Assembly: GCA_029243025.1 (NCBI GenBank)
Contig: JAQWSU010000022.1
Location: forward strand, 124,001 to 188,000
Source of the DNA: Pirellulaceae bacterium
GTDB lineage: Bacteria; Planctomycetota; Planctomycetia; Pirellulales; Pirellulaceae
Length of the DNA: 64,000 bases
Direction: 5' to 3'
The first letter of the stretch is position 1, and each line of letters begins with the position of its first letter. The notes beneath the pieces are model-generated. The model searched no databases. It was not told the origin of the DNA and worked only from the letters and a program-made list of their open reading frames with translations. Position numbers and translations under genes: made by a program. Below, one piece after another: positions 37,113 through 62,975 of the stretch.

Positions 37113-37552
37113 ATTCCGGCCACAGATGTGCAATGCTTACTCGATTCGCTTGATCGGCGGCCCGATGATGCGGTTGATGGTCGCGTGCCGATCTGGGGGA
37201 GCTGTTGAGACCGGCAAAAAACGACTCGCGACGTCTGGCAACGATAAAACAGACGATAGATTTCTTGATCTTTCGGTGTAGGTCGCAAGCCCGGCCGAGT
37301 CACTCGCGATTTTTGCGAAATTCTGCCCCGCAGGAAGATCTGCCATATAATTGAGAGCTGTGCCCAAGTCGGAGAGAAGGCCCTGTTGGGAAAAGGCCCT
37401 AGCTGGGAAGAAGCCTAAGGGGTCTTTTTTGGCAATGTGTGGATTCCGCAGGTCATTCCGGCCGTTTCTTCTCCCAACTCGGCTTTCAAGCGAAAATCGC
37501 AACTATATTGAGCAGTAAGGCTCGATTCATTATTTTCGGTGAAACAGATAGC
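37113..37552. other. Intergenic region before FG-GAP gene
   Basis: About 440 bp with no convincing gene. It holds an imperfect direct repeat around 37380-37415 (GGCCCTGTTGGGAAAAGGCCCTAGCTGGGAAG region). The promoter of the FG-GAP gene is expected here but cannot be pinned down. Confidence 0.4.
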
Positions 37553-39508
37553 ATGCGTTCGAAGCTCTCACCCCGATCGTATCAATTATTATTGGTATGC
37601 GGATTGATCCTTGTTGGAGTGATTGTCGTTCCCCTCGCTGTTGGGCGATGGAAGCGTGACGAACCGCTTGGAAATCCGGGGATTGGCAAGACCGATTCTG
37701 GGGTGGGGGATTCGATCTCCAAAGCGGAGCCGCCAACTCAATCCCTTGCAGCGAAGGCCGACCAACTACCTCTTCAAACGGAAGTGTCCTGGACAGAAAT
37801 CGACGATCCTTCGAAGGATGGTTGGTCGAGTGAGGTTTTGGCCGACGAAGCGAAAAAGGCTCTCTACGCTCTCGTGACACGGATTTTTTCTGGAGAGATT
37901 TCAGCCGATGCCGCCGAGGGGATTTGTCACAAGTCGTTTCTTGGAACTTCTCTCATTCCAGAAAACTCAGAGACAACTTTTGAGGATCAGGTTGTCGAAG
38001 TGTTGCATTGGAATTCCGAAAGCGATCCGGCTAGCCAGTCAAGTAACTACACTGGTACAGCCGGTTTCGAGTCGATGATTCGAGATGCCGGTCGCGTCTG
38101 GGGGCCGATGACGGACAAGCGATTTGAGATCAAGATTGTGCGCTCGCTGAAGCGAGATAATGAGTTGACAACACGACAGCTTGTCGGATTCAGCGGAAGA
38201 ACCGACGAGAAGCCGATCGAGCAACATGCGATTTGGGAAACGCGTTGGCAATTACAGCCCAACTCAGATGCATTGAAACTACTCGAGATTCGTGTTCTGG
38301 ATGTTGAAACATCGAAAGGTCGATCATCGTCGCCAATGTTTGTTGATTGTGCTGCTTCGATCTTAAAGGGTGATGAATCTCTTGAGTCGCAATTGCGTTT
38401 CGGCCTCAACCATTGGTTAGAACGAATTCAGGATATGCGTTACTTTGCTCCATTAGGGACCCCTGGTGTGGCCGTGGGTGATGTAAACAACGATGGACGA
38501 GACGATCTGTACCTGTGTCAGGAAGCAAATCTTCCCAATCGACTGTTCTTGCAACAGCCGGATGGATCAGCAATCGAGGTCGCTGCAGCGTGGGATGTTG
38601 ATTTCTTGCAGGGATCTCGTGGGGTCTTGTTGGTTGATCTCGACAATGATCGTGATCAGGATTTAGTCGTTGGCGTCATGGGAGGAGTGGTGATTGCGGC
38701 CAACGAAGGCAACAAGTTTGTCGTTCGCAATGTTCTCCCAACGGATGATGATACGACGTCGTTGTCCGCAGCTGACTACGATCTGGATGGCGATCTCGAT
38801 CTGTACGTCTGTGTTGACTATCCGAATGATGATGCATTGTTTGCCGGCGGGGAGCAAAATGGAATCACCGTGCAAGGCGGCGCTGCGAATCGAGTTTATC
38901 ACGATGCGAACAACGCCGGCCGCAACAGCCTGTTCCGAAATGACATTGCCAACGATGACTGGCGCTTCGAGAACGTTACCGAAATCTCGGGAATTGGAGA
39001 GGCCAATGAGCGGTTCAGTTGGGCCGCTTGCTGGGAAGACTATGACAACGATGGCGATCAAGATCTTTATGTTTCCAATGATTTTGGTCGTAACAATCTG
39101 TATGTCAATCAAGATGGGAAATTCGTGAATGTGGCCGACGAGTTCGAGATCGAAGACCGCGCTGCAAGCATGTCGGTGTCCTGGGGCGATGTTAACCAGG
39201 ATGGGCAGATGGATTTGTATGTGGCGAATATGTTCTCTTCGGCTGGCAGTCGAGTGACGGAACAGCCGATTTTCATGAGCGAATTGGCAAACTCGGACAA
39301 GGATCGGTGGCGGCGATTTGCAATGGGGAATTCGCTCTTTGCAAATCAAGGGTTGGATGGTTTTGAGAATGTGAGTCAGCGATCTGGAGCGACGATGGGA
39401 CGTTGGTCCTGGAGCTCCATTTTCATCGACGTCAATAACGACAGCTGGCAGGATATCTTTGTCGCAAATGGTTACATCACCTCGGAAACCGACAAGAGCG
39501 ACTTGTGA
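37553..39508 (+). CDS. CRTAC1-like FG-GAP/VCBS protein, N-terminal part (ends at recoded TGA?)
   Basis: A membrane-anchored FG-GAP/VCBS repeat protein of 651 aa up to the TGA. One helix at about 10-32 (YQLLLVCGLILVGVIVVPLAV) anchors it. A ~250-residue N-terminal domain precedes calcium-type repeats such as VAVGDVNNDGRDDLYLCQ, LVDLDNDRDQDLVVGV, DYDNDGDQDLYVSNDFG and SWGDVNQDGQMDLYVANMFS, which form a beta-propeller. It ends NGYITSETDKSDL-TGA. The following ORF continues in the same frame, and the paralogue at 60882-62795 is interrupted at the same place, so I believe translation normally reads through into 39530-41455. The start at 37553 excludes 38 unlikely residues; its ribosome site is weak. 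Confidence 0.85.
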   Translation: MRSKLSPRSYQLLLVCGLILVGVIVVPLAVGRWKRDEPLGNPGIGKTDSGVGDSISKAEPPTQSLAAKADQLPLQTEVSWTEIDDPSKDGWSSEVLADEAKKALYALVTRIFSGEISADAAEGICHKSFLGTSLIPENSETTFEDQVVEVLHWNSESDPASQSSNYTGTAGFESMIRDAGRVWGPMTDKRFEIKIVRSLKRDNELTTRQLVGFSGRTDEKPIEQHAIWETRWQLQPNSDALKLLEIRVLDVETSKGRSSSPMFVDCAASILKGDESLESQLRFGLNHWLERIQDMRYFAPLGTPGVAVGDVNNDGRDDLYLCQEANLPNRLFLQQPDGSAIEVAAAWDVDFLQGSRGVLLVDLDNDRDQDLVVGVMGGVVIAANEGNKFVVRNVLPTDDDTTSLSAADYDLDGDLDLYVCVDYPNDDALFAGGEQNGITVQGGAANRVYHDANNAGRNSLFRNDIANDDWRFENVTEISGIGEANERFSWAACWEDYDNDGDQDLYVSNDFGRNNLYVNQDGKFVNVADEFEIEDRAASMSVSWGDVNQDGQMDLYVANMFSSAGSRVTEQPIFMSELANSDKDRWRRFAMGNSLFANQGLDGFENVSQRSGATMGRWSWSSIFIDVNNDSWQDIFVANGYITSETDKSDL

Positions 39509-39536
39509 AGTTTCTTTTGGCGGCAGGTCGTGTCGC
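39506..39536 (+). other. In-frame TGA with SECIS-like hairpin (candidate selenocysteine site 1)
   Basis: TGA at 39506-39508 is the only stop between two ORFs in the same frame. Codons 39509-39538 read SFFWRQVVSR, the same peptide as in the paralogue. A 6-bp stem pairs GCGGCA (39520-39525) with TGTCGC (39531-39536) around the loop GGTCG, with one G-U pair. The GGU begins 18 bases after the TGA, close to its distance in the known E. coli fdhF SECIS, whose loop is also GGU-containing. Confidence 0.7.
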
Positions 39537-41455
39537 GCTCAGCAAATGATACAGAATCCCATGCTGATCCCGACTGGGGGCAGGCTCGTAATGAATTGTT
39601 TCACATGATTATGGAAGGTCGTTCCTTTAGCGGAAGAGAACGAAATTGCTGTTATCTCAATGTGGGTGACGAGACATTCGGAGCCATCTCGGCTGTGTCG
39701 GGGTTGGATTTTCCTGACGACGCCCGTTGTGTCGCTGTGACTGATTGGGATCAGGATGGTGACCAGGATATGTGGGTCTCTAACCGAAATGCTCCTCGGC
39801 TCCGATTCATGCGCAACAACCTGGAGTCAGAGAATAATTACCTGGCCATCCAGCTGGTTGGCGATGGTGCTACCACAAATGCTGACGCAATCGGCGCCCG
39901 TGTGATCGTTGAACTGGATGATGAGAACGCAGCCGAACAGAAGTCCAAACGGCGATACAAAACACTCAGAGCTGGCGAAGGGTTTATGTCCCAGTCGAGT
40001 AAGTGGCTGCATTTCGGTCTCGGAAAAACTGAATCGATTAAACGCGTCTCGGTACGCTGGCCCGCTGGGAAAGTGCAGGAATTTCACGGTCTCGACGTGA
40101 ATCGTCGTTATCGACTCATTCAAGGGCAGGGTGAGGCTGAATTGGTTGACCGAATTGCCGATGGAAGTGGGATCCAACCAGAGCCCTCGAAACCCCTGCC
40201 TGCTTCAGGTATCGCGCGGGTCGTTATGGAAACCCGTGTGCCCATGCCATCGGTTTCCTATACGGCACCAGGCGGGGAGATTAAGCGAGAGCAGTTCGAT
40301 GCGGCTGTTCCTACTCTCGTGAATCTTTGGGCGACGTGGTGCGGACCGTGCCAAAAAGAGCTTGATGAATTTAGTCAGCGGTCCGCCGATCTGGCGAAAG
40401 CGAATGTGCGAGTGCTTTCACTGTCGGTTGACTTGATTGGCGAAGATCCAACCACGCGAACGGCTGTGGCGGAACACCTTCAACGCTTCCATTATCCACA
40501 CGAATGGGGAGTTATCGACGAAGCTCAAATGGAGCGTTTTCAACAGATGCAGAATCTGTTTTTCTTCCTGCGGAAACCGCTGCCGTTGCCGTCGAGTTTT
40601 CTGATTGATGGGGATGGCAGGTTGGCAGCGATCTACAAGGGGCCTGTCACGGTAGAGCAGATCTTAGAAGATGTCGGCCGACCAGCGAAGGATTATCATC
40701 AAGCGAGCCAGCAGGCTGCTCAGTTGCCTGGCACGGTCTTAGATCATCCTCGAATTCAAGAGGTTGCCAAACGCTCGGATCTCTTGACTCGGTATCGAGT
40801 CGCAGATTGGCTGAGAGAATCAGGAGATGTTCCCAACGCGATCGAACATTATGCTGATATCGCCCGAACGGATCCGCAGTGGTATTTGCCCTATCAGGCA
40901 TTGGCCCAGATGTTGTTCGACCAAAATCAAATCGCAAACGCTGAAAAGTATGCGCAGTATGTGCTAAAGCTGAAACCAGAAAGTGCCGTCGCTTACAATC
41001 TCTTGGGCTTGATTCACTCCCGGCAAGCAGATCAAAAAACGGCTGAAAGTCATTTTCGCAAGTCGATCAGTCTGAATGAGGAATTGGCAGGTCCGCACAA
41101 TAATCTGGGTATTGTTTTGGCGATGCAAGGGGAAATTGCGGAGGCAGGAGACTGTTTCGCGCAAGCGGTCGAAATCGATCCGGAATTTGCCCAAGCACAC
41201 ATTAATCTGGGGAATGTGTGTGCCGGTCGACAAGATGCAGTAGGGGCGATAAAACACTATCAGCGAGCGATTGAGCTCGAACCAGACAATGTTGAGCCTT
41301 ACAATAATTTGGGAACCATGTTTGGGCGGCTGGGGGAAATTCGAAAAGCGATCGATTGTTATCGTCAAGCATTGAAAATCGATCCAAATAACCAGAACAC
41401 TCGCAATTATTTGGAACGAGCTTTGAAGCTCTTAAATGCTGGTCCACGTGGCTAG
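39530..41455 (+). CDS. ASPIC/UnbV-TlpA-like thioredoxin-TPR protein (C-terminal part of readthrough product?)
   Basis: As a separate ORF it would start at GTG 39530 and give 641 aa, but the coding signal begins right after the TGA at 39508. Domains in order: the last FG-GAP-like repeat (GRERNCCYLNVGD, DWDQDGDQDMWVSN), an ASPIC/UnbV domain (about 100-200, ending VSVRWPAGKVQEFHGLDVNRRY) and a TlpA/ResA-like thioredoxin domain with active-site WATWCGPC (about 263). Then come TPR repeats (about 420-640; AVAYNLLGLIHSRQADQKTAESHF and similar). If fused with the upstream part, the product is about 1300 aa, exported and membrane-anchored. A redox role is suggested by the CxxC and the possible selenocysteine. 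Confidence 0.85.
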   Translation: MSRSANDTESHADPDWGQARNELFHMIMEGRSFSGRERNCCYLNVGDETFGAISAVSGLDFPDDARCVAVTDWDQDGDQDMWVSNRNAPRLRFMRNNLESENNYLAIQLVGDGATTNADAIGARVIVELDDENAAEQKSKRRYKTLRAGEGFMSQSSKWLHFGLGKTESIKRVSVRWPAGKVQEFHGLDVNRRYRLIQGQGEAELVDRIADGSGIQPEPSKPLPASGIARVVMETRVPMPSVSYTAPGGEIKREQFDAAVPTLVNLWATWCGPCQKELDEFSQRSADLAKANVRVLSLSVDLIGEDPTTRTAVAEHLQRFHYPHEWGVIDEAQMERFQQMQNLFFFLRKPLPLPSSFLIDGDGRLAAIYKGPVTVEQILEDVGRPAKDYHQASQQAAQLPGTVLDHPRIQEVAKRSDLLTRYRVADWLRESGDVPNAIEHYADIARTDPQWYLPYQALAQMLFDQNQIANAEKYAQYVLKLKPESAVAYNLLGLIHSRQADQKTAESHFRKSISLNEELAGPHNNLGIVLAMQGEIAEAGDCFAQAVEIDPEFAQAHINLGNVCAGRQDAVGAIKHYQRAIELEPDNVEPYNNLGTMFGRLGEIRKAIDCYRQALKIDPNNQNTRNYLERALKLLNAGPRG

Positions 41456-41471
41456 GTCGGATAATCTTGAA

Positions 41472-43922
41472 ATGAAACGTGGCCAACGTAAATCAAAACG
41501 AAAAACGGTTGGGCCCAAACCGATTCGACCACAGGTCAGTCAGCTTTCCACGGCGAAGAAGATCCTGTTCTCTCTTTTGATGCTAGTCTTCGTCCTCGGT
41601 TTCGTCGAAGTTGGCTTGTGGGCCATTGGTCTTGAACCAGTCGCAACAAAACAAGATCCGTTCGTTGGTTTTTCATCGCAATCGCCACTGATGGTGGAAA
41701 AACAGCTTGATGGCGTCACGGTAATGGAAACGGCGCCAAACAAGTTGCGATGGTTCAATCAACAGCGTTTTTCGAAAACGAAATCCGGAAAAACGTTTCG
41801 TGTTTTTTGCTTGGGCGGATCGACCACCTTTGGTCGACCCTACGATGATGCAACTTCGTTTCCCGGTTGGTTACGAGAATTTGCGATGGCTGCGAATTCG
41901 CAATACGAATTTGAAGTGATCAACGCAGGGGGCATTAGTTATGCAAGCTATCGGATCGTGCGAGTGATGGAAGAACTTGCTGCCTATCAGCCTGACTTGT
42001 TCGTTGTTTATACGGGGCACAATGAATTTCTGGAAGAACGAACTTATCGGAGCGTGAAGCGCGTTCCTGGAGTTGTTCGTGATCTGGGAGTCTTTCTGAG
42101 TCATTTCCGCACCTACGCCTTGGCCGATCGTATGCTACGCGGCAATGATCAAAAAACCTCGTCCAATCAACAGCCAGAAGTCGTTGAGTTGGAAGAAGAA
42201 GTTGCCACGAGATTGGACAACGGCGTTGGTCTGGATGCCTACCAGCGAGATGATCAGTTAGCGGGCGATGTGCTGGAGCATTTTCGTTATAACCTCCAGC
42301 GGATGAATGAAATTGCGGAGCAGGTTGGGGCTGAAGTTGTGTTGGTGACTCCCGCTGCCAACCTCGCCAATTGTTCGCCCTTTAAAAGTCAGCACACGGC
42401 AGAGGTTGCGGCACAGGAACCTGAGTGGCAAAAACAATTCGACAAGGCGCAGGACGAGTATGGGCAGGGACGTCTGCAAGACTCGCTGCTTGCCGCTGAA
42501 AAAGCGGTTGCAATTTCACCCCGGCATGCCCGCACGCGTTTTTTGTATGGGCAGATCTTGTTGGAAATGGGGCAGTATGCCGAAGCGAAACGACAATTTG
42601 AAATCGCGAGAAATGAAGATGTGTGCCCGTTGAGAGCGCAAACAGAAACGGTACAAGTTGTGCGCGAAGTTGCTGCTGGAAATCAGTTGGAGCTGATTGA
42701 CTTTGAGCAATTCGTGCAGGACAACAGCGAGTATCAAATAGCGGGAGAGTCTCTCTTCCTTGATCATGTGCATCCCACCATCGAAGGAAATCGCTTGTTG
42801 GCTTTGCAGCTAGTCGATTGTTTGCAAGCCAAACAGGTTTTGCAAGAACCGGCTGACTGGTCGAACGTCGTCGGGCAAGTGACCGCGCAGGTCGAGTCGC
42901 AGGTTGACAGCCAAATGCAGGGACGAGCTTTGAGAAATCTAGCCAAGGTTTTGGGCTGGGCCGGGAAAAAAGAAGAAGCCGACCAACTTGCCTTGAAAGC
43001 ATCACAGCTTATCGGGGGCGATGCGGAAACCGCCTATTTGGCCGGTAACGCTTGGTTGACGAAGGGCGAGGTCAACAAAGCGATTCGAAAATTCCGTGAG
43101 GCGATCCGCATCGATTCGAAACACGTCCATGCTCACAATAGCTTGGCCACCGCCTTGCTGCAAATGGGGAAGATCGATGACGCCGAAACAGCTTATCTTC
43201 GTGTGATTTCCTTGCAACCGGATTTCGCGCCCGCTCATAATAATCTGGCCTCGCTCTATCAAAGAAAACGAGAATCTGATCGCGCTCTGCATCATTTCAA
43301 CGAAGCCATTCGATTGAATCCGCGATACTCCAAAGCCCACAACAATTTGGGTGTGTTGTATCGTAGCAACGAGGATTTTGAAAAAGCCGAATTGCACTTT
43401 CTCGCTGCACTCGATATCAATCCGGACTTTGCCGAAGCCCATTACAATCTGGGAACGGTTCTCGACCGGCGAGATGAAAGAGCTTTGGCACGCGATGAGT
43501 TCCAGGATGCAATTCGCATCAATCCAAGCTTTGCAGCGGCCCATTACAGGCTTGGTGCTTATTTCGAAGACCAGCGGCAATGGGAGGCGGCTGTCAAAGC
43601 TTATCAAACAGCCGTTCGTCTTCCGAAGATGCCGCTGCAAGCATTGCGTCGGACCGCATGGCTATTGGCCACCTGTCCAGACAAAAAAATTCGGAACGGT
43701 AAAGAATCATTGGAAATGGCAAAAGTTTGTGCGAAGAGCACTCAATTCAAAGACGCTGAGAGTCTCTGTACACTTGCTGCTGCGTATGCCGAAGTAGGGC
43801 AAGTCAAGAATGCCTGTAAGTGGCAAGAGCAGGCCGTGCAAACTGCGACTACAAAAGCAGAACAAAAGAAGTATGTTCGTCTGCTGGAAATCTTTCGCCA
43901 GGGGAAACCTTTCAGGCAGTAA
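41472..43922 (+). CDS. SGNH/GDSL hydrolase-like protein with TPR repeats
   Basis: An 816-aa protein. The basic N-terminus is followed by one membrane helix (about 33-52, ILFSLLMLVFVLGFVEVGLWAIG). An SGNH-type hydrolase domain shows block I as FCLGGSTTFG (GGST instead of GDS), the block II Gly in INAGGISYASYR, block III as YTGHNEFLEE and block V as LDHVHPT. It is split by a TPR-like insertion (about 330-390). A C-terminal TPR array (about 510-800) has typical AHNNLGVLYRSNEDFEKAELHF units. The ATG at 41472 is 16 bp after the previous stop, so the genes are co-transcribed. SGNH proteins of this kind act on acyl or glycan esters at the envelope; the substrate is unknown. Confidence 0.82.
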   Translation: MKRGQRKSKRKTVGPKPIRPQVSQLSTAKKILFSLLMLVFVLGFVEVGLWAIGLEPVATKQDPFVGFSSQSPLMVEKQLDGVTVMETAPNKLRWFNQQRFSKTKSGKTFRVFCLGGSTTFGRPYDDATSFPGWLREFAMAANSQYEFEVINAGGISYASYRIVRVMEELAAYQPDLFVVYTGHNEFLEERTYRSVKRVPGVVRDLGVFLSHFRTYALADRMLRGNDQKTSSNQQPEVVELEEEVATRLDNGVGLDAYQRDDQLAGDVLEHFRYNLQRMNEIAEQVGAEVVLVTPAANLANCSPFKSQHTAEVAAQEPEWQKQFDKAQDEYGQGRLQDSLLAAEKAVAISPRHARTRFLYGQILLEMGQYAEAKRQFEIARNEDVCPLRAQTETVQVVREVAAGNQLELIDFEQFVQDNSEYQIAGESLFLDHVHPTIEGNRLLALQLVDCLQAKQVLQEPADWSNVVGQVTAQVESQVDSQMQGRALRNLAKVLGWAGKKEEADQLALKASQLIGGDAETAYLAGNAWLTKGEVNKAIRKFREAIRIDSKHVHAHNSLATALLQMGKIDDAETAYLRVISLQPDFAPAHNNLASLYQRKRESDRALHHFNEAIRLNPRYSKAHNNLGVLYRSNEDFEKAELHFLAALDINPDFAEAHYNLGTVLDRRDERALARDEFQDAIRINPSFAAAHYRLGAYFEDQRQWEAAVKAYQTAVRLPKMPLQALRRTAWLLATCPDKKIRNGKESLEMAKVCAKSTQFKDAESLCTLAAAYAEVGQVKNACKWQEQAVQTATTKAEQKKYVRLLEIFRQGKPFRQ

Positions 43923-58961: not shown

Positions 58962-60860
58962 TTATCGGCTGTTAATTGGGTTAATCAGCTTTTTCATGCT
59001 GTTTTTGAGTTGCGAGACGCGCTCAGTTTGCCCGTCCGCCTCTGCATCTTGTATCGCAAGTCTTAACGCAGCTATGAGTTGCATCCGGTACCGGTCATTC
59101 AAATCGGAATTCGCGGAGTGAAGTATTGCCGTTTGGTACAGCTTTTCGGTCTGAATCACGTTACCCACAAGCGCGAAAATGATGGCCGCTTCAAATTGTT
59201 GAGCCGGATTAAGCGATTGCCACCCATCGATTTTCGAAAGTTCACTGGCTGCTTGGGCCACATCGCCTGTGCGGGCTAAGGTTGTGCCAAGATAAAATCT
59301 TGCCAATTGATCTTGCGGCCTCAGGTGCACGACACGTCGAAAGCTTTTAATCGCCTTGGCGTAGGAATTTTTTTGTGCGTACAAGACGCCCAGGTTGAAG
59401 TGTGCTGGGGCAAGTTCGGGTTGGCGATCAATGGTCGCAAGATACAGTTTTTCAGCCCGATCGTGATCTGATTGGGCCGAGAATTGTTGTGCCAGATTGA
59501 ACAACAGAATATGGAATTCGGAGTCTGTTTGGAGTGCTGTTTGATGTTTTTGCACATAAGCGATGAGGGTGTTCATATCGGCGATCTCGAGCAAGCTCAG
59601 AGCTGTCGTTAGCAGGCGACGCGGTTTTGGATCGGCCGACCAACGACCAGCGAAGGGGACGCTTGCATCGCGGCGTGATTTTCCATTTTGCGCGAGCTGA
59701 GTCGAATGTTTGATTAGTTCCGACGCACCCACGGGGCCGCGATAGAATCCAACCAGATTGCTTTGGGCATCGACCAAAAAGCTGCATGGCAGAGGTAGTG
59801 TGGTGTGCAGGTCAAATACGTTGTCGTGGAACAGCTGCAATTGGTTCAGCAACTGATTGGTTGACCAGCCAAATCGTAGGTTTGGATTTTCTGATGGGAT
59901 TGGCAATGAGGAATGATCGGCATCTTTTTCGTCGACGCAGATCGCAACGATGTTGATTCCCGCGTTTTGAATTTTATTAGCTTGCGTCGAAAAATCTTTT
60001 AGTTCGGTGAGGCACGGGCCGCACCATGGCGCCCAAAGATTGATCAATGTAAGTTGCGCGGGTGATTCGCTCTGTACGATATTCGTTGTTTCACCAGTGT
60101 CCCAATCCAAATATGCGAGATTGGTGGGCAAGGGTAAGGGAGCTGAAAGTAGAGTCGCGTTGTTTTGCAGATCTTCGATGACGCTTGATGGTTGGTGGGG
60201 ATCATCGTGGCTGAAAACTTCAGTGGTTGAAGCCTCGGGAGGGGATTGCTGGATTTCGGCCTTCGGATTGTCTTGTTGAATCAAGTAACAGCAATTCGCC
60301 TGCAAATCTTTAAATGATTGAACGGTTCCGTCTGGCCAAGTGACTTTGAGTTCTTTGATGCCATCTGCATTGTTCAAGCCAAAGTGTAATTGTTTGCTCG
60401 ATTGGGAAAGATATCCGCTCCCAGCCTTCACGGATCGAGTGATTTGCTGGGGTTCGCAACGAAGGAAAAGCGTGGCGCGAGCTCCCACGGCGTCACGATT
60501 ACAGCGGGTTCCTTGCAGCTTGATCGAAAGGAAAGTTCGAAGTTCTGCCGGTAGGGTATTGGTCAGATATCGAAGTTGAGGTCCGCTGCGATTTGCAACC
60601 CACAGATCCAAGTCACCGTCATGATCCCAATCGCTGACGGCGATAGCGCGAGCGTCATCGGGCAGGTCCAAGCCGCTGGCCGCAGAAAGATTTGCAAAGC
60701 GACGCTGTTCTTGATTTGCTTGGCCTGTGTTTAAGAAGAAACAGTTTTTTTCGCGGCCGCTGAAAGAATGTCCGCTACGGATCAATTGCTGTAATTGACG
60801 GCCTTGTTGACCTCCAACACCTACTGCTTGATCGTCAATCGCCGAAGCGCCACGCGACAC
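58962..60860 (-). CDS. ASPIC/UnbV-TlpA-like thioredoxin-TPR protein, second copy
   Basis: As a separate ORF it would start at GTG 60860 and give 632 aa, but conserved coding sequence begins right after the TGA of the upstream ORF. Domains in order match the gene at 39530: SGREKNCFFLNTG and DWDHDGDLDLWVAN, an ASPIC/UnbV domain ending LKVTWPDGTVQSFKDLQANCCY, a TlpA-like thioredoxin with WAPWCGPC at about 276, and TPR units (about 450-590, APAHFNLGVLYAQKNSYAKAIKSF). Overall identity to the first copy is moderate, so the duplication is old. Cys pairs after the ASPIC domain are kept in part. Likely envelope redox or complex-assembly role; unproven. Confidence 0.85.
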   Translation of the reverse strand: MSRGASAIDDQAVGVGGQQGRQLQQLIRSGHSFSGREKNCFFLNTGQANQEQRRFANLSAASGLDLPDDARAIAVSDWDHDGDLDLWVANRSGPQLRYLTNTLPAELRTFLSIKLQGTRCNRDAVGARATLFLRCEPQQITRSVKAGSGYLSQSSKQLHFGLNNADGIKELKVTWPDGTVQSFKDLQANCCYLIQQDNPKAEIQQSPPEASTTEVFSHDDPHQPSSVIEDLQNNATLLSAPLPLPTNLAYLDWDTGETTNIVQSESPAQLTLINLWAPWCGPCLTELKDFSTQANKIQNAGINIVAICVDEKDADHSSLPIPSENPNLRFGWSTNQLLNQLQLFHDNVFDLHTTLPLPCSFLVDAQSNLVGFYRGPVGASELIKHSTQLAQNGKSRRDASVPFAGRWSADPKPRRLLTTALSLLEIADMNTLIAYVQKHQTALQTDSEFHILLFNLAQQFSAQSDHDRAEKLYLATIDRQPELAPAHFNLGVLYAQKNSYAKAIKSFRRVVHLRPQDQLARFYLGTTLARTGDVAQAASELSKIDGWQSLNPAQQFEAAIIFALVGNVIQTEKLYQTAILHSANSDLNDRYRMQLIAALRLAIQDAEADGQTERVSQLKNSMKKLINPINSR

Positions 60861-60884
60861 AACTTGTCGCCAGAAAAAACTTCA
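60854..60884 (-). other. In-frame TGA with SECIS-like hairpin (candidate selenocysteine site 2)
   Basis: On the minus strand, TGA (60884-60882) separates two ORFs in the same frame and is followed by SFFWRQVVSR. The stem GCGACA (60870-60865) pairs perfectly with TGTCGC (60859-60854) around the loop AGTTG. Relative to copy 1, one G-U pair has become A-U, so pairing is kept while codons change. The loop lacks the second G of the GGU motif. Confidence 0.65.
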
Positions 60885-62795
60885 GAGATCCTGGTTGTCA
60901 TCGGTGGTGATGTAGCCGTTGGCCACAACAATGTCATCACGACCGTCATTGGTCAGATCGCACAGGACCGAACTCCACGCCCAGCGACCGAGTTCCGCTC
61001 CGCCGGCCATCTCGACGTCGGAAAAGAGCCCGTTTCCGAGGTTTTTAAAAAGTGTGTTTCCTTTGGCAAATCGAGAAAGGATTTTTCGAGTTTCGGGAGT
61101 TGCTTTGGGTTGGAACTCCGGCTGGCGACTAATTCGATTTCCAGCGGCGGAAAACATATTTCCCACATAGAGATCGACGTTGCCGTCGTTGTCGTAATCG
61201 GACCAACTGACGGACATGCCAGAACCGAAGTCAATTACACCGGCTTGTTCTGCGATTTCTACGAAGCTGCCGTTGTCGTTTCGATAGAGGCAATTCTGGC
61301 CATAGTCGTTTGCGACGTATAAATCTTGATCACCATCATTGTCGTAATCTTCCCACGACGCGGCCAAACTATGCCGATGATTGTTTACATCGAGTCCGAC
61401 GCGTGTCGTCACATCTTCAAAAGACCAATCGTCACCACGTATCATGTTGCGGAAGAGCAGATTGCGACCTCCGTCATTGGCATCATGATAGATAAATGGC
61501 TGGGGGCGATCGCGATCGGGAGCGTTGGCAAATCCAAGAGTAATGTAAAGATCGAGCTTTCCATCATTGTCAAAGTCGACAGCCGAGAGGTTTTGGACAT
61601 GACGATCTCTTAACTCAAGTTGTGCAGCTGTCTCGAAAAGACCGGTTCCATCGTTCTGCATCACGATGATTTGGCGGGACTCCAAGGCAACCGCCAAATC
61701 TTGATCGCCGTCATTATCGAGGTCGACAAATAACGAACTTGAACATTGCTCAAGCCAACCCGTGTTTGATACATGAGTAATGTCTTTCATCCGACCGTTG
61801 GTTTGGCGAACGAGCAAGCGGTTGGGAAGTCCCCCGGGTTGGCAGACGTAGAGGTCATCATGTCCGTCGCCATTGACATCTCCTAGTGAGAGTCCATATT
61901 CGGCAAATACGTACATGCCATGGTGAGTTTCGATGCGCTGAAGCCAATGATTGAGTCCAAACTTAAGTTGTTTGTTAAAGACCGACGTGTGTCCCAAAAC
62001 GTTTTCAGTATCGTCCGACATTAGGGTTGCGTTTGCCAACTTGCAGTGCGATTCGACGTAGTCGCTGGATGCAAGTGAATGCAGGCGGGGGGGCGTGTCT
62101 GCAGTCCATTCACAATTCCACTTTGCGTGTTGTTCAAGACGACCTGTGGCTGTTGTGCCACTTGCTTCCAGGATGTGCGTCGTTTGACGGAGTGGTCCGT
62201 CCGTGTCGACGTGGATTGTCTTTACCGCTACTCGACGGTCCGTGGCCTGCGAGAATGGATCTTCAAATTGACGGATTGCCCGATCGATCGGAGTTTGTTG
62301 ATAGAGCGGCGAATGCGTCTCTTTCGCTTGCCTGACGACGAAAATTTTATCTTCGAAAGTGATTTTGAGTGGCTGCGGCCGCAGCGAGTTACTTTGAAAA
62401 GAAGTTGCACCAATGGCAGCACGTGTTTGCAGTGGTTTTGTGAAGTCGACCAATTCTTCGATACGATCCTGAGCTAAGGCAGCAAATGATTCAGTAGTCC
62501 AGCCATCATGGTCAGGGTTCAAGAGCTCTTGCTGCACTTCGGCAAGCGTCGACTGTCGCGGAATCGGAGCCGTGTCGAGGAGAGGCGTCGGCAAGCTGGC
62601 TTCGGTGTTTAAATCGCTGCTTATTGCCGTTTCGGGAGGGGCGATCGATTCGTCGTGCCAGCCACGCCGCCAAATGGTTGCCACGAGAAACACGAGAATT
62701 CCCACGGTCATCACAGTCAGCAGCCCAAGCGATCGTCGCCCGAACGATCGGCGGGTGGTTGGAGATTGAGATGGTGGAAGGTTCGTTCGGGTCAT
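60882..62795 (-). CDS. CRTAC1-like FG-GAP/VCBS protein, second copy (ends at recoded TGA?)
   Basis: A 637-aa FG-GAP/VCBS protein with one membrane helix (about 22-43, LGLLTVMTVGILVFLVATIW) and a ~250-residue N-terminal domain. The propeller repeats include LSLGDVNGDGHDDLYVCQ, FVDLDNDGDQDLAVAL, DFDNDGKLDLYITLGF, DYDNDGDQDLYVANDYG and SDYDNDGNVDLYVGN. It ends NGYITTDDNQDL-TGA, the same place as in the gene at 37553, and the next ORF continues in frame. I regard the pair 62795-58962 as one recoded gene of about 1277 codons. It is divergent from a third paralogue, with a 180-bp shared upstream region. Confidence 0.85.
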   Translation of the reverse strand: MTRTNLPPSQSPTTRRSFGRRSLGLLTVMTVGILVFLVATIWRRGWHDESIAPPETAISSDLNTEASLPTPLLDTAPIPRQSTLAEVQQELLNPDHDGWTTESFAALAQDRIEELVDFTKPLQTRAAIGATSFQSNSLRPQPLKITFEDKIFVVRQAKETHSPLYQQTPIDRAIRQFEDPFSQATDRRVAVKTIHVDTDGPLRQTTHILEASGTTATGRLEQHAKWNCEWTADTPPRLHSLASSDYVESHCKLANATLMSDDTENVLGHTSVFNKQLKFGLNHWLQRIETHHGMYVFAEYGLSLGDVNGDGHDDLYVCQPGGLPNRLLVRQTNGRMKDITHVSNTGWLEQCSSSLFVDLDNDGDQDLAVALESRQIIVMQNDGTGLFETAAQLELRDRHVQNLSAVDFDNDGKLDLYITLGFANAPDRDRPQPFIYHDANDGGRNLLFRNMIRGDDWSFEDVTTRVGLDVNNHRHSLAASWEDYDNDGDQDLYVANDYGQNCLYRNDNGSFVEIAEQAGVIDFGSGMSVSWSDYDNDGNVDLYVGNMFSAAGNRISRQPEFQPKATPETRKILSRFAKGNTLFKNLGNGLFSDVEMAGGAELGRWAWSSVLCDLTNDGRDDIVVANGYITTDDNQDL

Positions 62796-62975
62796 GAAAT
62801 CTTTGCCAAAATGAGACCAATGCCATTTTAAAACACCCTAATCCATCTAGGGGTGACTTACTAGTTTTTCCCGAGGCAACTCTTTTTTACGGTTCCTACA
62901 TTATGTTTTTGAGGTGTCGAATTGCTTGGGCTGGTAGCATAAAATAGATCTAGGGATTTTGCCCCGGAATAGGCG

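Follow-up and report, generated by a model that had tools for sequence, protein, structure and literature searches.

The reading frame around the TGA at 39506

Two long open reading frames of a Pirellulaceae bacterium (assembly GCA_029243025.1, contig JAQWSU010000022.1) lie in one frame and are separated only by a TGA, which raises the question of whether this codon ends a protein or is read as selenocysteine (Sec) within a longer one. The whole stretch of DNA analysed, of 64,000 nucleotides, is called the window here. The frames were located as the preliminary description had placed them: the ORF 37439-39508 ends at the TGA, the ORF 39530-41455 follows in the same frame with the GTG at 39530 as its first possible start, and the codons after the TGA read SFFWRQVVSR. 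Read through the TGA from the ATG at 37553, the gene yields a product of 1300 residues and roughly 145 kDa with Sec as residue 652 (Table 1). The N-terminal segment after this ATG is hydrophobic, which suggests that the product is exported. The TGA almost certainly encodes selenocysteine, as the comparisons below indicate.

Table 1. Features of the selenoprotein gene and of a second family member in the window
Feature	Position	Strand	Basis or remark
Whole selenoprotein gene	37553..41455	+	Single frame holding one TGA; predicted start ATG 37553; stop TAG
CRTAC1-like FG-GAP beta-propeller, TGA within	38426..39886	+	Pfam FG-GAP_3, AlphaFold; outer limits approximate
TTG codon preceding TGA	39503..39505	+	Nucleotide-level constraint: 87/93 Leu codons TTG, 1.84 bits above expectation
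TGA, almost certainly read as Sec	39506..39508	+	TGA in 135/151 homologues, TAA/TAG in 0, Cys in 6
SECIS stem, 5' arm	39520..39525	+	Folding and family comparison
SECIS apical loop GGUCG	39526..39530	+	GGTCG in 68/98 unique class-A sequences
SECIS stem, 3' arm	39531..39536	+	Folding and family comparison
UnbV_ASPIC domain	39887..40111	+	Pfam PF07593, E 5e-20
TlpA/ResA-like thioredoxin domain	40268..40630	+	AhpC-TSA 6e-10; ResA/TlpA matches (hmmsearch, Foldseek)
CGPC motif, proposed redox partner of Sec	40340..40351	+	Sec-CxxC co-occurrence 62/62 versus 0/6
TPR repeats	40817..41401	+	Limits approximate
Second family member (L039)	58962..62837	-	Stop-to-stop frame
TGA of L039	60882..60884	-	TTDDNQDL-U-SFFWRQVVSR

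The domain content agrees with one continuous protein of the CRTAC1/ASPIC-UnbV type, the FG-GAP repeats (112 bits) and UnbV_ASPIC (71.5 bits) both scoring above their cut-offs, to which a TlpA/ResA-like domain with thioredoxin fold and CxxC motif (CGPC) is fused (Foldseek E 1e-10). In the AlphaFold model (pLDDT 89, pTM 0.90), the nearest fold of the propeller, and best PDB match, is murine CRTAC1 (9etn; TM 0.73 on target), the C-terminal part has ResA and TlpA as its nearest folds, and a predicted helix begins with Sec. Reactive Cys and Sec residues usually occupy such a position.

The downstream neighbour (41436-43922, +), encoding an SGNH/GDSL-like hydrolase with TPR repeats, nearly overlaps the gene and is a possible operon partner; comparison of neighbouring genes found no operon common to family members.

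A family with TGA at a single site

A search with the fused protein, followed by inspection of the codons, gave 24 paralogues in the same genome with TGA at exactly the same site, and two Cys versions, L046 (TGC) and L049 (TGT). Besides the second member within the window, a third begins at its edge. One paralogue, L044 (G000:C11:80557-83470), is frameshifted roughly 130-190 codons after the TGA and is either a pseudogene or an assembly error, so that 23 apparently intact copies remain. Among 60 relatives dozens more members were found, each with one TGA at the site, and a TGA-anchored motif pattern matched in 52 of 392 genomes of the phylum, with 21 matches in the own genome, while the reversed control pattern gave no match in those 392. 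Named carriers belong to the Planctomycetota, the Verrucomicrobiota (Roseibacillus, Akkermansiaceae) and the Acidobacteriota; no relative was found on viral contigs. That the TGA arose from decay of the gene or from a sequencing error, as the frameshift in L044 might invite one to think, is refuted by this distribution, an identical codon, always TGA, in 24 paralogues and three phyla, and we regard its probability as negligible.

The codon at the Sec site was then compared in 151 homologues, taking sequences with the conserved Trp at +4. TGA is present in 135, Cys in 6 and Ser, Ala, Gln or Asn in 10, and neither TAA nor TAG occurs in any of the 151. The site is thus held by TGA or a sense codon and never by an ordinary stop, and homologues that lack the TGA are one uninterrupted ORF; ordinary stops at the site, or two truly separate proteins in homologues, were among the findings that the preliminary description had named as evidence against its proposal. 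The Ser, Ala, Gln or Asn at this site in a few homologues shows that the protein folds without Sec and that loss of the Sec function is possible, a point against the reading.

A true stop at 39506 with the GTG at 39530 as a second start, giving two proteins or a programmed truncation, would explain why a long ORF lies on either side. Such a stop would cut the propeller, however, the seven codons ahead of the GTG are conserved, and the single ORFs of the homologues without TGA, together with the complete lack of TAA and TAG, also speak for one polypeptide; we consider termination at this codon extremely unlikely.

The machinery for Sec insertion

The preliminary description had proposed to look for selA, selB, selC and selD, and all four were found in the genome (8.35 Mb, 60 contigs), with scores of 570 bits for selA, 365 for selB, 65 for tRNA-Sec and 352 for selD, all above the curated cut-offs. 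The tRNA was also called by ARAGORN as tRNA-SeC with anticodon tca; it lies on contig C2, where selA adjoins selB. By sequence inspection, selD (L020, G000:C60:108592-109518) is itself a predicted Sec gene. Its in-frame TGA (DYASCAG-U-AGKLP) precedes a perfect 7-bp stem, UUGCACA-GGU-UGUGCAA, that much resembles the element of the CRTAC1 family and lies further downstream of its TGA than the latter does.

Across the 60 relatives, selA exceeded its cut-off in 20 of 21 genomes with a TGA member versus 18 of 39 without (Fisher p = 1.6e-4), and three further members (L142, L175 and L184) come from genomes that contain selB. One relative, G003, has a TGA member and neither selA nor selB was found in it; it was rejected as an exception because tRNA-Sec is present, and the missing genes are likely a gap in the draft genome. 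Separately, the genome of Edaphobacter lichenicola still contains selB, its family member (L166) having Gln at the Sec site and no CxxC. In the own genome, a sequence at G000:C9:26503-26943 (-) that is weakly ResA-like (E 4e-5) and contains a single in-frame TGA is a possible further selenoprotein.

A stem-loop under selection follows the TGA

The stem-loop reported in the preliminary description exists and is the centroid fold of the region. Taken as a single sequence it folds no better than expected at random: z is +0.50, and 132 of the 200 shuffled versions do equally well. No Rfam match was found at the site. We judge the stem to be real from comparison of the family, which shows compensatory changes and more pairing than synonymous shuffles give. 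Among 98 unique class-A sequences the six pairs are formed to 90.8%, versus 55.9 ± 1.6% under synonymous shuffling with codons drawn from the same genes (1000 draws, maximum 62.2%). In 35 spread sequences, 97.1% of pairs are formed, 15 cells are changed on both sides, and the covariation of 0.302 compares with 0.117 ± 0.019 in shuffles, none of 500 being as high; shifting the stem partners destroys the covariation.

The loop is conserved as well, with GU at its positions 2-3 in 97 of the 98 class-A sequences, and most paralogues of the own genome carry a GACA-GGUCG-UGUC element. By inspection, the class B subfamily has the stem GCGCAC-GGUC-GUGCGY and the class C subfamily GGCUGU-CGUGUC-ACAGCC, both with GU in the loop. 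Eight TGA members in which the stem had appeared to be absent all proved, on inspection, to carry GCGCAC-GGUC-GUGCGY, shifted by one base. Homologues with a sense codon at the site form only 1-4 of the six pairs, even where SFFWRQVV is kept. A stem selected for just downstream of the TGA and lost without it, and a conserved in-frame TGA aligned with Cys in six homologues, are both features of a selenoprotein family. As had been remarked earlier, the arrangement is like that of the E. coli formate dehydrogenase SECIS, in which a coding-region stem-loop with a small GGU loop directly follows the TGA; the selA/B/C/D route is common to both and the protein families are unrelated.

The codons flanking the TGA (39503-39511) are fixed as TTG before and AGT or AGC after it beyond what the amino acids need, the AGY codon being constrained by 1.63 bits. 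This context perhaps favours Sec over termination.

Readthrough with another residue, by near-cognate suppression or by TGA meaning Trp or Cys, would give the same fused protein. The presence of tRNA-Sec, SelA, SelB and SelD, the covarying stem with its GU loop, the Cys found in relatives and the association with selA all stand against it, as does the use of TGA as a normal terminal stop in genes of the family, and we hold it to be very unlikely.

Sec co-occurs with a proposed resolving cysteine

The preliminary description had considered a redox use of Sec plausible from the CGPC motif, and family comparison points the same way. Where a Sec protein has the TlpA-like domain, CxxC is present in it (62 of 62 cases), whereas the six non-Sec homologues that possess this domain all lack the motif (p = 9e-9 without correction for kinship). 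These six cases are not independent, as the non-Sec Acidobacteriota may go back to one or a few losses. An Edaphobacter homologue that seemed to have no TlpA domain by its Pfam reading was rejected as such, since the family profile finds the domain, minus the CxxC. Sec proteins that have no TlpA-like domain and whose ends are intact carry Cys at Sec+2 in 25 of 25 cases (PDG-U-x-C; DL-U-S-C), the sole other domain-less Sec protein being the frameshifted L044. According to the tree, U-x-C has replaced the TlpA domain twice independently.

Propellers of the CRTAC1 family bind calcium through DxDxDG loops, and Sec might accordingly be inserted in a metal-binding or structural role, with the TlpA domain acting elsewhere. 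The Ser, Ala, Gln or Asn of some homologues would fit such a role, but the loss of CxxC together with Sec and the two replacements of the domain by U-x-C do not, and we think a non-redox Sec improbable.

Very probably, then, as far as sequence comparison can tell, the gene encodes an exported selenoprotein with SelB/SECIS-dependent Sec insertion and a redox Sec that is resolved by CxxC or by the +2 Cys. Comparison shows that the Sec codon and the SECIS are conserved, that the machinery is present, that a single polypeptide is encoded and that Sec is coupled to CxxC. We infer actual Sec insertion, a catalytic role, export and a direction of electron flow as follows. The whole gene would encode one exported protein. 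SelB, binding the GGU stem-loop just past the TGA, would bring Sec-tRNA so that translation goes on. Sec, which begins a short helix set into the CRTAC1-like propeller, would be the reactive redox residue and attack the substrate; once oxidised, it would be resolved by the CxxC cysteines of the TlpA-like domain fused to the propeller, and in members without this domain by the Cys two residues on. This assignment of attacking and resolving residues is proposed because of the Sec-CxxC coupling, the U-x-C swap and the position of Sec at the start of a helix.

Discussion

The family shares the FG-GAP propeller and UnbV_ASPIC domain with murine CRTAC1 and ASPIC-UnbV proteins, and differs from them by a Sec in a propeller-inserted helix and a fused thioredoxin-like domain. 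With the TlpA/ResA thiol-disulfide oxidoreductases it shares the thioredoxin fold with CxxC; unlike in these, the domain lies within a larger protein and has CxxC only where Sec is present. NHLRC2, in which a Trx-like domain is fused to an NHL propeller of a different family, and the MsrA/MsrB-TlpA fusions, in which a thioredoxin-like domain is fused to the reductase it serves, offer analogies of working; neither has Sec in this position. The NCBIfam model WAxxUGC_long (NF041054) is annotated as ResA-like and, to judge by its name, has its Sec within the thioredoxin motif, whereas Sec lies here in the propeller; it matches weakly and in the TlpA-like domain only (30 bits against a cut-off of 300). 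No NCBIfam selenoprotein model exceeded its cut-off in the five members scanned, and none did so for the family in Pfam scans.

A literature search combining selenocysteine or selenoprotein with UnbV, FG-GAP, CRTAC1 or ASPIC returned nothing relevant. Sec machinery is described in the text of a study on planctomycetes, whose supplementary table S9 lists candidate selenoproteins for two of them (PMC4807772). The largest survey, which covered more than 5200 organisms with some 90 selenoprotein families, known or predicted, put the highest count for a single bacterium at 39 selenoprotein genes or more, found more than three quarters of selenoprotein-rich species to be anaerobic, and named three selenoprotein-rich clades, Planctomycetota being neither among them nor in its text (PMC5029168). 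The preliminary description knew of no such selenoprotein, and none was found in the searched papers or family libraries; a selenoprotein family of the CRTAC1/UnbV_ASPIC type is therefore probably undescribed so far. The selenoprotein reading that had been proposed is supported, by evidence that includes the 24 paralogues, the second member in the window and the co-variation of Sec with CxxC, which the earlier account did not have. It seems likely that the family represents an undescribed superfamily of exported selenoenzymes in three phyla, with Sec in the propeller and an exchangeable resolving unit (TlpA or U-x-C).

Under standard annotation, genes of this kind would be truncated at the TGA, and many records probably conceal members as two broken genes. 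Because the TlpA domain is exchanged for a neighbouring Cys in some members, the resolving step of the proposed selenoenzyme is open to direct testing. The CRTAC1-type family by itself amounts to 24 genes in one planctomycete; if the reading is true, some PVC bacteria would be among the most selenoprotein-rich bacteria, and the family would point to an extracytoplasmic reaction that is not yet known.
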